DNA of 51,992 nt from Flavobacteriales bacterium (GTDB lineage: Bacteria > Bacteroidota > Bacteroidia > Flavobacteriales > Flavobacteriaceae), in contig JADHRQ010000008.1 in NCBI GenBank assembly GCA_016777325.1, positions 1 to 51,992 on the forward strand. Reading direction: 5' to 3'. Numbering within the stretch: position 1 is the stretch's first letter; each line of letters begins with the position of its first letter. Below the pieces are notes generated by a model. It worked only from the letters and a program-made list of their open reading frames with translations. It made no database searches and was not told the DNA's origin. A program made the translations under genes and the position numbers. Shown here piece after piece: positions 4,723 through 8,757 of the stretch.

Positions 4723-4749
4723 ATATATTTTTTAGAAAAAAAAATAAAT

Positions 4750-4757
4750 TAAATTTG
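4750..4757 (+). promoter_or_regulatory. Candidate -7 element of the tRNA-Gln promoter
   Basis: TAAATTTG matches the Bacteroidota -7 consensus TAnnTTTG and ends eight bases before the tRNA 5' end, so transcription would begin at or just upstream of the mature tRNA. No clear TTG -33 element is seen, only a T-rich tract. Confidence 0.5.
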
Positions 4758-4765
4758 CAGCTAAA

Positions 4766-4838
4766 TGGCCTATGGTGTAACTGGTAACACGTCTGGTTTT
4801 GGTCCAGAAGAGTCTAGGTTCGAGCCCTAGTAGGCCAA
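4766..4838 (+). tRNA. tRNA-Gln (anticodon TTG)
   Basis: A full cloverleaf can be drawn: acceptor stem TGGCCTA/TAGGCCA, D stem GTGT/ACAC, anticodon stem TCTGG/CCAGA with loop TTTTGGT (anticodon TTG, reading CAA), and T stem CTAGG/CCTAG with loop TTCGAGC. The 3' CCA is not encoded. It sits directly upstream of nusA, in the place where E. coli has a tRNA (metY) at the head of its nusA-infB operon. Confidence 0.95.
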
Positions 4839-4865
4839 CAATTTTATTATATCAATAATTTATAA

Positions 4866-4873
4866 TAAATTTG
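4866..4873 (+). promoter_or_regulatory. Candidate -7 element upstream of nusA
   Basis: TAAATTTG matches TAnnTTTG. Transcription from here would start near 4880 and place the hairpin at 4893-4914 inside the nusA leader. Without this promoter the hairpin could simply end the tRNA-Gln transcript. Confidence 0.45.
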
Positions 4874-4892
4874 CCCAGCATTTGGATATTTG

Positions 4893-4922
4893 AGAGGAGA
4901 CATTTTGTCCCTCTTTTTTTTT
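4893..4922 (+). terminator. Terminator-like hairpin in the nusA leader (possible attenuator)
   Basis: Arms 4893-4901 and 4907-4914 pair as AGAGG-GAC with GTC-CCTCT, with one bulged A (4898) and an ATTTT loop, followed by a run of nine T (4914-4922). This is the form of an intrinsic terminator. It lies 16 bases before the nusA start, so it either ends the tRNA-Gln transcript or attenuates nusA. Confidence 0.65.
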
Positions 4923-4938
4923 AAATAAAGTTAAGTAA

Positions 4939-6171
4939 ATGGAAAATATATCACTATTAGACTCCTTTTCTGAATTCAAAGATGAAAAGTTAATTGACAG
5001 AGTAACCTTAATGGTAATACTTGAAGAAGTATTTAGAAATACTCTTACTAGAAAATTTGGTACGGATGAAAATTTCGACATTATTATTAATCCTGATAAA
5101 GGTGACCTTGAAATATGGCGAAACAGAATCGTTGTGAAAGATGGTGAAGTCGAGGACCCTAATGCAGAAATTGAATTAAAAGAAGCGGTTAAAATTGAAC
5201 CTGATTTTGAAGTAGGAGAAGAAGTGTCGGAGGAATTTAAATTAATTGATTTGGGGAGAAGGTCTATACAGTCGCTTAGACAGAATCTTGTTGCCAAAGT
5301 TTTTGAGCATGATAGTAATAATACATTTAATCAATTTAAGGATAGAGTAGGAGAAATATTTACTGCAGAAGTTCATCATGTTAGAGCAAGAGAGGTAATT
5401 CTTTTAGACGACAATGGTAACGAATTAATCATGCCAAAGGATAAGCAAATTCCTAAAGATTTCTTTAGAAAAGGTGACAATGTTAGAGGTATAATAGAGA
5501 ATGTAGAGTTAAAAGGGAATAAACCTAGAATTATTTTTTCAAGAACCTCTCCATTGTTTTTAGAAAAATTATTTGAACAAGAAATTCCTGAAGTTTTTGA
5601 TGGTTTAATTAGCATTAAAAAAGCTGTTAGAATTCCTGGTGAAAAAGCAAAAGTTGCAGTTGATTCATATGATGACAGAATAGATCCAGTTGGAGCTTGT
5701 GTTGGAATGAAGGGTTCAAGAATCCATGGAATAGTTAGGGAACTAGGTAACGAAAATATTGATGTAATAAATTACACTAATAACATACAATTATTTATTA
5801 CAAGAGCACTTAGTCCTGCAAAAGTGAATTCCTTAAATATTGATGAGGAGAAAAAAACTGTTCAAGTTTATCTTAATCCAGATGAAGTATCTAGAGCTAT
5901 TGGTAAAGGAGGACAAAATATAAGATTAGCAGGAAGGTTAACGGGTTATGAAATAGATGTTTACAGAGAAGGAGCCGAGGAAGATGTAGAGCTTACTGAA
6001 TTCAAGGATGAAATTGATGCGTGGGTGATTGAAGAATTTAGAAAAGTTGGATTAGATACAGCAAAGAGTGTTTTAGAGCTTAGTAAAGAGGATTTAGTCA
6101 AAAGGACTGATCTTGAAGAGGAAACTGTTTCTGACGTTCTAAAAGTTTTAAAGGAAGAATTTGAAGACTAA
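4939..6171 (+). CDS. nusA: Transcription termination/antitermination protein NusA
   Basis: 410 residues. The N-terminal RNA polymerase-binding domain spans about 1-125, an S1 domain about 130-195 (GEIFTAEVHHVRAREVIL), then two KH domains: KH1 with VGACVGMKGSRI near residue 255 and KH2 with IGKGGQNIRLAG near 320. A short acidic C-terminal helix-hairpin segment follows; the long paired acidic repeats of E. coli NusA are missing, which is normal outside the Gammaproteobacteria. NusA binds RNA polymerase and nascent RNA and promotes pausing and intrinsic termination. infB follows after nine bases, so they are co-transcribed. rimP, which usually precedes nusA, is absent. A terminator-like hairpin in the leader suggests feedback by NusA itself (inference). 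Confidence 0.97.
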   Translation: MENISLLDSFSEFKDEKLIDRVTLMVILEEVFRNTLTRKFGTDENFDIIINPDKGDLEIWRNRIVVKDGEVEDPNAEIELKEAVKIEPDFEVGEEVSEEFKLIDLGRRSIQSLRQNLVAKVFEHDSNNTFNQFKDRVGEIFTAEVHHVRAREVILLDDNGNELIMPKDKQIPKDFFRKGDNVRGIIENVELKGNKPRIIFSRTSPLFLEKLFEQEIPEVFDGLISIKKAVRIPGEKAKVAVDSYDDRIDPVGACVGMKGSRIHGIVRELGNENIDVINYTNNIQLFITRALSPAKVNSLNIDEEKKTVQVYLNPDEVSRAIGKGGQNIRLAGRLTGYEIDVYREGAEEDVELTEFKDEIDAWVIEEFRKVGLDTAKSVLELSKEDLVKRTDLEEETVSDVLKVLKEEFED

Positions 6172-6180
6172 AAAATATAT

Positions 6181-8757
6181 ATGCCATTACCAATAAGGTT
6201 AAATAAAGTACTTAAAGAACTTAATATATCTCTAGATAGAGCTCTTGAATTTCTTAGTTCAAAAAAAATTGAAGTTGAGCCAAGACCAACTTCAAAAATT
6301 GATCAAAATACTTACGACCTTCTTCTTGATGAATTTCAAACTGATAAATCTAATAAGGATAAACTTGAAGAGATTAATTCAATAAAGAGAAAAGAACTTG
6401 AAGCTAAACTAGCTGAAGAAATCAAGGAAGAGGAACTGAAATCTCAGCATGCTATTAAAAAAGAGGAACTGAAATCTCAGCAAGCTATTAAAAAAGAGGA
6501 ACTGAAATCTCAGCAAGCTATTAAAATAGAAGAAACTCCCAGTAAAAAAGATACTATAGATAAAGAAGAATTATCTAGCTCTTCTCCAAAGGTTAAAAAG
6601 TCAATTGAAGATGTTCAAATAAATCCAGATGATCCATCAAAGATTCAGACCAATTTTCAAAAGCTTTCTGGTATAAAGAAAACAGGTGAAGTAATAGATT
6701 TAGATTCGATTAAGAAAAAAGAGGAAAAAGTAGAAGAGTCAAAAAAGAAAAGAAGAAAAAGGATTAGTAAAGATGTATCCAAGCCAAAAGATCTTGCAAG
6801 TAAATTTAATAAAAACAATAAGCAAATTAATCCTAATCAAAAAGTTGAGCCTACAAGTGATGAAATTCAAAAACAAATTAGGGAAACTTTGGAAAAACTT
6901 CAAGGTAAATCTTCTAAGTCTAAGGGTGCTAAATATAGAAAAGATAAACGAGATCAAAGAAAAGTTCAATCTGAGGAGGAAGAGGCCTTACAAGAAAAAG
7001 AGAGTAAAAAAATTAAGATTACTGAGTTTATAACAGTTGGTGAAATAGCAACTCTAATGGATATAAGCTCAAATGATATAATTTCAACTTGTATGAGTCT
7101 TGGTATTATGGTTACAATGAACCAAAGATTAGATTCAGAAACATTATCAGTTGTTGCAGATGAGTTTGGATATGAGCTAGATTTTATTAAAACTGATATT
7201 GAAGAAGAACATGACGAAGTAGAAGAAGAGGAAGATCCAAAAAATTTAGAAGAAAGACCTCCTGTAGTAACTGTAATGGGACATGTTGATCATGGAAAAA
7301 CATCTCTTCTGGATTATATAAGAAGTTCTTCAGTTACTGAAGGAGAATCTGGTGGTATAACTCAGCATATAGGCGCATATTCTGTAACGGTTAACTCAAA
7401 AAAGATAACATTTCTTGACACGCCTGGTCACGAAGCATATACAGCCATGAGAGCTAGAGGTGCTCAAATAACAGATATTGTAATTATTGTAATTGCTGCG
7501 GATGATAGTATAATGCCTCAAACAAAAGAAGCAATAAGTCATGCTCAAGCTGGAGGTGTTCCTATAATTTTTGCAATAAACAAGGTTGACAAAGAGGGTG
7601 CAAATCCTGACAAAGTTAAAGAATCTCTAGCAGCTATGAATCTTGTTGTTGAAGATTGGGGTGGTAAAATTCAGTCACAAGATATTTCTGCATTAAAGGG
7701 CCAAGGTGTTGATTCTCTTCTAGAAAAAGTTTTACTTGAAGCAGAAATAATGGATTTAAAAGCCAATCCAAATAAAAACTCTTCAGGTTCAGTTATAGAA
7801 GCATACTTAGACAAGGGTAGAGGTTATGTTTCAACAATATTAGTTCAAAATGGTTCTTTGAAAATAGGAGATTACCTGCTAGCAGGAAAAACAAGCGGAA
7901 AAGTTAAGGCAATGTTTGATGAATCAGGAAATTCTCTTGAGCATGCATTACCTTCCACTCCAGTTTCTGTTCTTGGTTTAGATGGAGCTCCTAAGGCAGG
8001 AGATCCTTTTAAAGTTCTTGATGATGAAAAAGAAGCTAAAATGATTGCCTCTAAAAGAACTCAATTAGGAAGAGAACAAGATGTTAGAACACAAAAACAT
8101 TTAACTCTAGATGAAATTGGAAGAAGAATTGCGGTTGGTGATTTTAAGGAACTTAACGTTATTATAAAAGGTGATGTTGACGGTTCAGTTGAAGCTTTAA
8201 CAGATTCTTTTCAGAATTTATCAACTGAAGAAATTCAGATTAATATTATATTTAAAGCTGTTGGTGCAATTACAGATTCAGATGTTTTATTAGCCTCAGC
8301 TTCAGAAGCAATAATCGTTGGTTTTAATGTTAAGCCAACTCTTAGTGCTAGAAAATTATCTGAAAAAGAACAAATTGACATAAGATTTTACTCAATAATT
8401 TATGATGCAATAAATGATCTAAAGGATGCAATGGAAGGTATGCTTTCGTTAGAAATGAAAGAGGAAAGTACAGGAGAAGCTGAGGTTAGAGAGACTTTTA
8501 AAATTTCTAGAATTGGAACTATTGCCGGCTGTATGGTAACTTCAGGTAAAATATTTAGGAATTCTAACATTAGGGTAGTGAGAGCTGATGAAATGATTTT
8601 TGAGGGTAAACTTCTGTCTTTGAAAAGATTTAAAGATGATGTTAAAGAGGTTGCAAAAGGATATGATTGTGGTATTCAGATTAATGAATTTAATGACCTT
8701 GTAGAAGGTGATATTATACAGTTTTATCAAGAAATTGCTGTAAAGAGAAAATTATAA
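6181..8757 (+). CDS. infB: Translation initiation factor IF-2
   Basis: 858 residues. The N-terminus holds an IF2N-like helical domain (about 1-60) and a long charged Lys/Glu linker to about residue 275 that includes three 11-residue repeats (EELKSQxAIKK). A second IF2N-type segment precedes the GTPase core: P-loop GHVDHGKT at 367-374, G3 DTPG at 413-416 and G4 NKVD at 467-470. The remaining domains (G2, G3 and the fMet-tRNA-binding C2 domain) are complete. IF-2 delivers initiator tRNA to the 30S subunit and drives subunit joining with GTP. The stop codon overlaps the end of the convergent SPOR gene by six bases. Confidence 0.98.
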   Translation: MPLPIRLNKVLKELNISLDRALEFLSSKKIEVEPRPTSKIDQNTYDLLLDEFQTDKSNKDKLEEINSIKRKELEAKLAEEIKEEELKSQHAIKKEELKSQQAIKKEELKSQQAIKIEETPSKKDTIDKEELSSSSPKVKKSIEDVQINPDDPSKIQTNFQKLSGIKKTGEVIDLDSIKKKEEKVEESKKKRRKRISKDVSKPKDLASKFNKNNKQINPNQKVEPTSDEIQKQIRETLEKLQGKSSKSKGAKYRKDKRDQRKVQSEEEEALQEKESKKIKITEFITVGEIATLMDISSNDIISTCMSLGIMVTMNQRLDSETLSVVADEFGYELDFIKTDIEEEHDEVEEEEDPKNLEERPPVVTVMGHVDHGKTSLLDYIRSSSVTEGESGGITQHIGAYSVTVNSKKITFLDTPGHEAYTAMRARGAQITDIVIIVIAADDSIMPQTKEAISHAQAGGVPIIFAINKVDKEGANPDKVKESLAAMNLVVEDWGGKIQSQDISALKGQGVDSLLEKVLLEAEIMDLKANPNKNSSGSVIEAYLDKGRGYVSTILVQNGSLKIGDYLLAGKTSGKVKAMFDESGNSLEHALPSTPVSVLGLDGAPKAGDPFKVLDDEKEAKMIASKRTQLGREQDVRTQKHLTLDEIGRRIAVGDFKELNVIIKGDVDGSVEALTDSFQNLSTEEIQINIIFKAVGAITDSDVLLASASEAIIVGFNVKPTLSARKLSEKEQIDIRFYSIIYDAINDLKDAMEGMLSLEMKEESTGEAEVRETFKISRIGTIAGCMVTSGKIFRNSNIRVVRADEMIFEGKLLSLKRFKDDVKEVAKGYDCGIQINEFNDLVEGDIIQFYQEIAVKRKL
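6430..6528 (+). repeat. Three 33-bp tandem repeats inside infB
   Basis: Units at 6430-6462, 6463-6495 and 6496-6528 are almost identical at DNA level and encode EELKSQHAIKK, EELKSQQAIKK and EELKSQQAIKI. The near-perfect identity points to recent duplication in the flexible IF-2 linker. Confidence 0.9.

Follow-up and report, generated by a model that had tools for sequence, protein, structure and literature searches.

We propose that positions 4866-4922 of the window, by which we mean the whole 51,992-nucleotide stretch of Flavobacteriales DNA analysed here (a contig of a 0.81-Mb assembly that is 55% complete), are probably the leader attenuator of a former rimP-nusA-infB operon, a sub-optimal terminator that lets excess NusA curb its own synthesis. 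Direct support comes from the sequence of the element, its position, its conservation, its covariation among some of the relatives and its retention after rimP loss, as well as from the promoter-like box that accompanies it. A conserved leader terminator that is kept after rimP has gone agrees with NusA feedback by attenuation. In the proposed mechanism, transcription would start a few bases 3' of TAAATTTG (4866-4873) and a leader of ~45 nt would be made; part of the RNA polymerase would halt at the T-run, while the remainder would continue into nusA-infB. NusA stimulates intrinsic termination. The sub-optimal terminator, here with a bulged stem, would leave room for regulation by NusA, excess NusA leading to more termination and hence to less NusA synthesis, and rimP would have dropped out between leader and nusA in this lineage with the leader retained.

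All features of the locus lie on the forward strand. The 5' arm of the predicted terminator, AGAGG-A-GAC (4893-4901), is recognised from sequence, RNA folding and orthologous hairpins in relatives and carries a bulged A at 4898; the loop ATTTT (4902-4906), whose outer A and T are paired in the RNA fold, leads into the 3' arm, GTC-CCTCT (4907-4914), supported by sequence and folding. A reading made earlier from the sequence alone had given these arms, the single bulge and the five-base loop at the right coordinates. It had also placed nine T immediately after the stem: the run of nine is real (4914-4922) and, given the T-polarity seen in relatives, is the expected 3' end of a short leader RNA, but its first T also closes the 3' arm, which leaves eight T strictly beyond the arm. 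Between the T-run and the nusA ATG (4939) there are 16 bases (4923-4938), exactly as that reading had it, and TAAATTTG, a -7-type promoter-like element of the TAnnTTTG form kept in relatives, stands 19 bases 5' of the stem, close to the estimate of about 20. The nusA gene (4939-6171, 410 aa, NCBIfam TIGR01953 above cut-off) has no rimP ahead of it and is followed by infB, encoding IF-2 (6181-8757, 858 aa, NCBIfam TIGR00487 above cut-off). Upstream lies tRNA-Gln(TTG) (4766-4839; ARAGORN, Rfam RF00005), preceded by a second TAAATTTG at 4750-4757. This TAnnTTTG-like copy, judged from its sequence, is probably the -7-type element of the tRNA gene, a promoter type of Bacteroidota. On reading the window sequence, no clear -33 element was seen ahead of the leader box.

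The RNA fold of 4893-4922 has an energy of -9.8 kcal/mol (z -3.29), and one of 200 shuffles is equally stable. On the forward strand of the window the leader hairpin alone combines dG <= -8 with an adjoining T-run of at least seven (one of 34 such T-runs); the reverse strand also has one such pair (one of 50), and 20 block shuffles give a mean of 0.1 per strand. A simple hairpin scanner run on the window did not list the leader hairpin, probably because of the bulge. A pattern of the hairpin allowing up to two mismatches occurs once in its own, incomplete genome. A chance origin is ruled out by the conservation of the hairpin in relatives.

All 22 genomes of the genus in which the nusA start is present share the order tRNA-Gln, TAnnTTTG box, bulged hairpin and run of nine or ten T. 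The box is TAAATTTG throughout the genus, save for TACATTTG in one genome (L022), and where the window has A as its bulged base the remaining 21 genomes have C. In other genera, the same unit of box, hairpin and T-run lies ~500 nt upstream of nusA, directly ahead of rimP, which is the first gene of rimP-nusA-infB in the relatives that bear it. The sequence-only reading had proposed examining hairpin conservation in related genomes, and the hairpin is indeed conserved: hairpin and T-run are present in 106 of 106 near leaders scanned (a set of 110 loci with four unscanned, in which six of the 106, L031-L036, repeat genus genomes already included). Rows on short or cut contigs (L042, L100, L106) and one whose rimP start was uncalled (L101) were removed before counting; the hairpin is visible in L101, which is also a model match.

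The association with rimP or nusA is specific. Using rimP start codons chosen by rule, and hence putative, a hairpin with dG <= -6 whose end is at most 40 nt from the start codon occurs in 62 of 64 rimP/nusA leaders and, by the same test, before none of 253 other genes of these loci with an upstream gap of at least 100 nt. With the limit relaxed to 150 nt the counts become 63 of 64 and 10 of 253, and once other genes of every gap size are admitted, the 40-nt limit is satisfied by 8 of 459. In the 80 nt 5' of the hairpin, 90 of 93 distinct leaders carry an exact TAnnTTTG (5.4 on average after shuffling), at a median distance of 24 nt. Covariation was scored on 20 rows (alignment A3) selected for equal length and perfect stems, a selection that itself favours pairing; two of eight stem pairs show changes in both arms, 7 cells in all, and the score beats 500 of 500 shuffles, while the number of two-side-changing pairs alone is unremarkable, being reached in 77 of 500. 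The pair counts leave out a MAFFT alignment made from 81 mixed hairpins, in which the loops were misplaced, and the evidence leaves out alignment A4, which mixes matches to either strand because the hairpin is near-palindromic.

We further extended the survey across family, order and class (Bacteroidia). Under a looser T-run rule, the hairpin is found in 77 of 80 further loci, and 74 of the 77 carry an exact TAnnTTTG; three of the 77 are doubtful, namely L157, where the reported hairpin is not of the leader type and none of that type is seen, L174, where the reported hairpin is not the leader's but the leader hairpin is visible in the sequence, and L167, which is cut by a contig edge without a rimP ORF. 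The distance from hairpin end to start codon has a median of 17 nt over the 77 loci. In the three other loci (L187 of G083, and those of G082 and G051) the hairpin was not found, in L187 although an adjoining 167-aa ORF is taken as rimP.

The leader has outlasted rimP. RimP_N was not found in 25 of 25 genus genomes searched, and a RimP profile built from alignment A1 likewise finds no match in these 25, most of which are incomplete and two of which are 92 and 95% complete. The same profile recovers rimP in 10 of 10 rimP-bearing genomes (nine controls and G066, which has a long gap to nusA, yet is matched). It finds no match in 12 genomes outside the genus: G028, G207 (L051), G208 (L103), G041, G054, G045, G047, G081, G189, G148, G051 and G082. 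Mapped on a NusA tree, the presence of rimP switches 10 times, and seven switches are required by the starred branches taken alone, both counts including G051 and G082; this tree was built by a quick method from 109 of 146 rows thinned by hand, with 40 of 106 inner branches open and long branches at G082, G051 and G040. A promoter-like box and hairpin stand before nusA in each rimP-less lineage sampled, save G051 and G082, whose genomes of less than 0.5 Mb have lost both rimP and the leader hairpin. By our count on the tree, some eight lineages lack rimP and keep the hairpin: the window's genus, in which the leader now adjoins nusA directly; L029 with L103; L051; family f6 (G041, G054); G045 and/or G047; G148; G081; and G189. 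The box reads TATATTCG in L029 and L051, and the distance from hairpin end to nusA is 72-164 nt in G045, G047, G081 and G148 and 116 nt in L051. A terminator serving RimP has no reason to persist before nusA, and this retention makes NusA or IF2, rather than RimP, the more likely effector of the leader terminator. Thus the claim of the sequence-only reading that a terminator-like hairpin sits between a promoter-like element and nusA gains from the comparison, the predicted leader terminator being conserved in relatives and retained after rimP loss.

The leaders are short. From the estimated start to the hairpin end they measure a median of ~40 nt (93 leaders; 36 nt in the window), and without the 3' arm eight of 93 fold at -3 or better, the window leader at 0.0. 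These short, little-folding leaders make riboswitch, T-box and classical antiterminator schemes unlikely. An ATG occurs before the hairpin in 11 of the 93.

Stem and T-tract strength run opposite between clades (Spearman 0.82 over 93 leaders, a value that ignores descent and could reflect just two clades). In one type of leader the stem is weak and often bulged and is followed by 8-9 T, while the other has strong stems with an interrupted TTTTTATA tract; shorter stems of the GAAGAC/GTCTTC type with 8-9 T are seen in L048, L058, L063, L067 and L069-L072. In the strong-stem loci, ordinary 3'-end terminators (36 at 66 stops) are intermediate between the two leader types, and here the leader surpasses ordinary terminators in stem stability and falls short of them in its T-tract alone; the weak-stem loci offer two at 22 stops, too few for comparison. 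In 800 kb of a genome of the same genus (G017), the leader (-9.3) ranks 38th by strength of 43 hairpins with dG <= -8 and six or more T, and the window copy, at -11.0 by the same method, would fall about mid-list among them. Weakness of the leader stem is not general, as the rank in G017 stands against the mid-list place of the window copy and against the strong-stem clades, and this tells slightly against our reading. A near-absence of intrinsic terminators in the genus, suggested by the window alone, was rejected given these 43 hairpins in 800 kb. Weak hairpins and distal interruptions of the U-tract are also described, in a part of PMC8060035, as marks of factor-dependent terminators in B. 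subtilis. For Bacteroidia as a whole we lean, by a little, towards a two-part reading in which rimP has been lost repeatedly from an attenuator that stays with nusA-infB and so would serve NusA (or IF2) and not RimP, and in which clades balance the strength of the stem against the length of the T-tract, holding the terminator at a set strength tunable by a factor.

The sequence-only reading had offered a simpler alternative, that the hairpin is solely the terminator of tRNA-Gln, nusA being transcribed through leakage or from another promoter. The arrangement in the genus lends itself to this: the tRNA 3' end lies 53 nt 5' of the stem with no space for another terminator, tRNA-Gln is present in all 22 genus genomes with a nusA start, and in the same-genus genome (800 kb) 10 of 18 tRNA genes, tRNA-Gln counted, have a terminator-like hairpin with dG <= -7 within 150 nt. 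Across relatives, however, the predicted link of hairpin to tRNA fails and the hairpin follows rimP/nusA. The orthologous hairpin precedes rimP, and a search reaching at most 1,500 nt upstream of nusA (less in a few) detected no tRNA in 67 of the 74 loci with rimP, so the presence of the hairpin is not due to the tRNA; tRNA-Gln lies farther off in the other seven (L026, L027, L044, L083, L096, L098, L107). The hairpin is moreover found class-wide (77 of 80, a set in which tRNAs were unscanned), the promoter-like box lies between tRNA and hairpin wherever both occur, and the tRNA-Gln hairpin is the weakest of the ten tRNA-linked ones (-9.3, against -10.8 to -16.6). We therefore regard an exclusive role as tRNA terminator as improbable. 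The leader hairpin may also end tRNA-Gln read-through as a second use, which is likely given that, of the 17 tRNA genes other than tRNA-Gln in the same-genus genome (800 kb), nine lie no more than 150 nt from a terminator-like hairpin, one such hairpin being common to tRNA-Leu and tRNA-Gly.

Two further alternatives concern what the hairpin responds to and what it does. An attenuator with another effector, be it IF2, NusG or the translation state of the start region, or one that provides fixed down-tuning only, is unlikely, if somewhat less so than the tRNA explanation; infB directly follows nusA in the window, which would suit IF2, but control by NusA of the terminator in its own leader is stated for B. 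subtilis (PMC12288461), as is repression by NusA expression for the E. coli operon (PMC2965389). That the hairpin is no terminator at all but an element of RNA stability or translation, such as a 5' protective hairpin or an RNase III site, would accord with the median of 17 nt between hairpin end and start codon and with the RNase III processing sites known in the E. coli operon (PMC6511841, in part). The T-richness argues against this, since it has the polarity of a terminator: at least five T occur in the 8 nt 3' of the strongest GC-closed hairpin in 91 of 92 near leaders and in 54 of the 58 wider leaders whose hairpin ends within 40 nt of the start, whereas the 8 nt 5' of it reach that count in 3 of 92 and 1 of 58. 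We consider this last explanation very improbable, and NusA-responsive attenuation remains our preferred reading.

Attenuators of this kind are already known. The rimP-leader was described by Naville & Gautheret (2010), where, as parts of PMC2965389 report, rimP is top-ranked among genes predicted to be attenuated and NusA is the preferred effector, with RimP left possible. As in those leaders (PMC2965389, from the same parts; RF01770), the relatives of the window show a short terminator hairpin with a G-rich 5' arm, a C-rich 3' arm and a T-stretch, without a visible antiterminator and before rimP-nusA-infB. The window itself has the hairpin and T-stretch in the 5' leader and keeps nusA-infB without rimP; its terminator-to-gene distance of 16 nt (wider median 17) falls within the 4-130 nt of rimP-leaders, and no antiterminator is visible, the leader without its 3' arm folding at 0.0. 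The GGGc(...)gCCC core of rimP-leaders is lacking in the window, where CCC is present and GGG is broken. GGG in the 5' arm together with CCC in the 3' arm is found in 68 of 77 wider, 35 of 78 nearer non-genus and 0 of 28 genus rows, and these falling counts indicate that the rimP-leader signature has decayed towards the window; the strict GGGC..GCCC form occurs in 11 of 77 wider Bacteroidia and 1 of 78 nearer non-genus leaders. Rfam RF01770 gives no match in window positions 4740-5040 at E <= 10 and, at E <= 1, none above cut-off in 60 relatives among the matches listed. In a search of the locus with all of Rfam (gathering score, E <= 10) the tRNA is the sole match above cut-off; six other matches, far below their cut-offs, were taken for chance.

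The leader also resembles that of B. subtilis nusA, in which termination is stimulated by NusA within its own leader, as stated in the portion of a review (PMC12288461; the Mondal 2016 system): both have an intrinsic terminator in the 5' leader, its stimulation by NusA being presumed here. It differs in length, the B. subtilis leader having 180 nt (from a part of PMC2965389) against the median of ~40 nt from start to hairpin end here. In the E. coli metY-rimP-nusA-infB operon, too, nusA-infB are preceded by a tRNA gene and by promoters and terminators (t1/t2); the operon differs in that its tRNA is the initiator tRNA, not tRNA-Gln, rimP is present, and it has several promoters and RNase III sites (both after parts of PMC6511841). 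The main text of PMC2965389, supplementary lists apart, contains no word beginning with Bacteroid or Flavobacter, and no description of the leader was recognised from titles and abstract starts among the papers listed from the open-licence literature on Bacteroidota. What seems new is the rimP-less form and its repeated retention, which we have not met in print in the open-licence literature. Lineages that bear the leader and lack rimP provide an independent evolutionary argument against RimP as the effector, and the Bacteroidota leaders of ~40 nt offer short test leaders in another phylum.

Whole-genome searches with a hairpin model, R1, recover the leader outside the genus. Among 14 order-level genomes, the best match is the rimP leader in six (G037, G050, G042, G043, G049 and G048), G037 having one further, weaker match; the single match in G038 lies elsewhere, G039, whose nusA locus is outside the set compared, has a single match as well, and six of the 14 have no match at E <= 0.01. 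At the same threshold none of 24 genus genomes, the window's own included, is matched at the leader, and one (G007) is matched elsewhere. R1 is thus blind to the bulged hairpins of the genus and is not used to claim uniqueness within it.

Several observations concern the surroundings of the leader. tRNA-Gln lies upstream in the window's genus, L029, L051, L103 and both f6 genomes (the latter by eye), and it is seen ahead of rimP-nusA or nusA across several genera as well as in another family of the order (L137 and L139 too). This recurrent position suggests that the gene order is old or that the adjacency arose repeatedly; metY in E. coli is a parallel. In L051, a 27-codon open frame encoding a membrane-like sequence (MGVGGIVIATVAVCLIIAIIIEIKERI) lies between tRNA-Gln and the leader hairpin, and an end similar to that of this frame stands before the leader in L044. 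In L190 (G189) the TAnnTTTG box is just ~6-11 nt ahead of the hairpin, leaving the leader nearly a bare terminator. Finally, the part of infB encoding the N-terminal region contains a 33-base repeat in three copies (6433-6531 of the window, starting at 6433, 6466 and 6499), which read EELKSQ(H/Q)AIKK-like in the protein.
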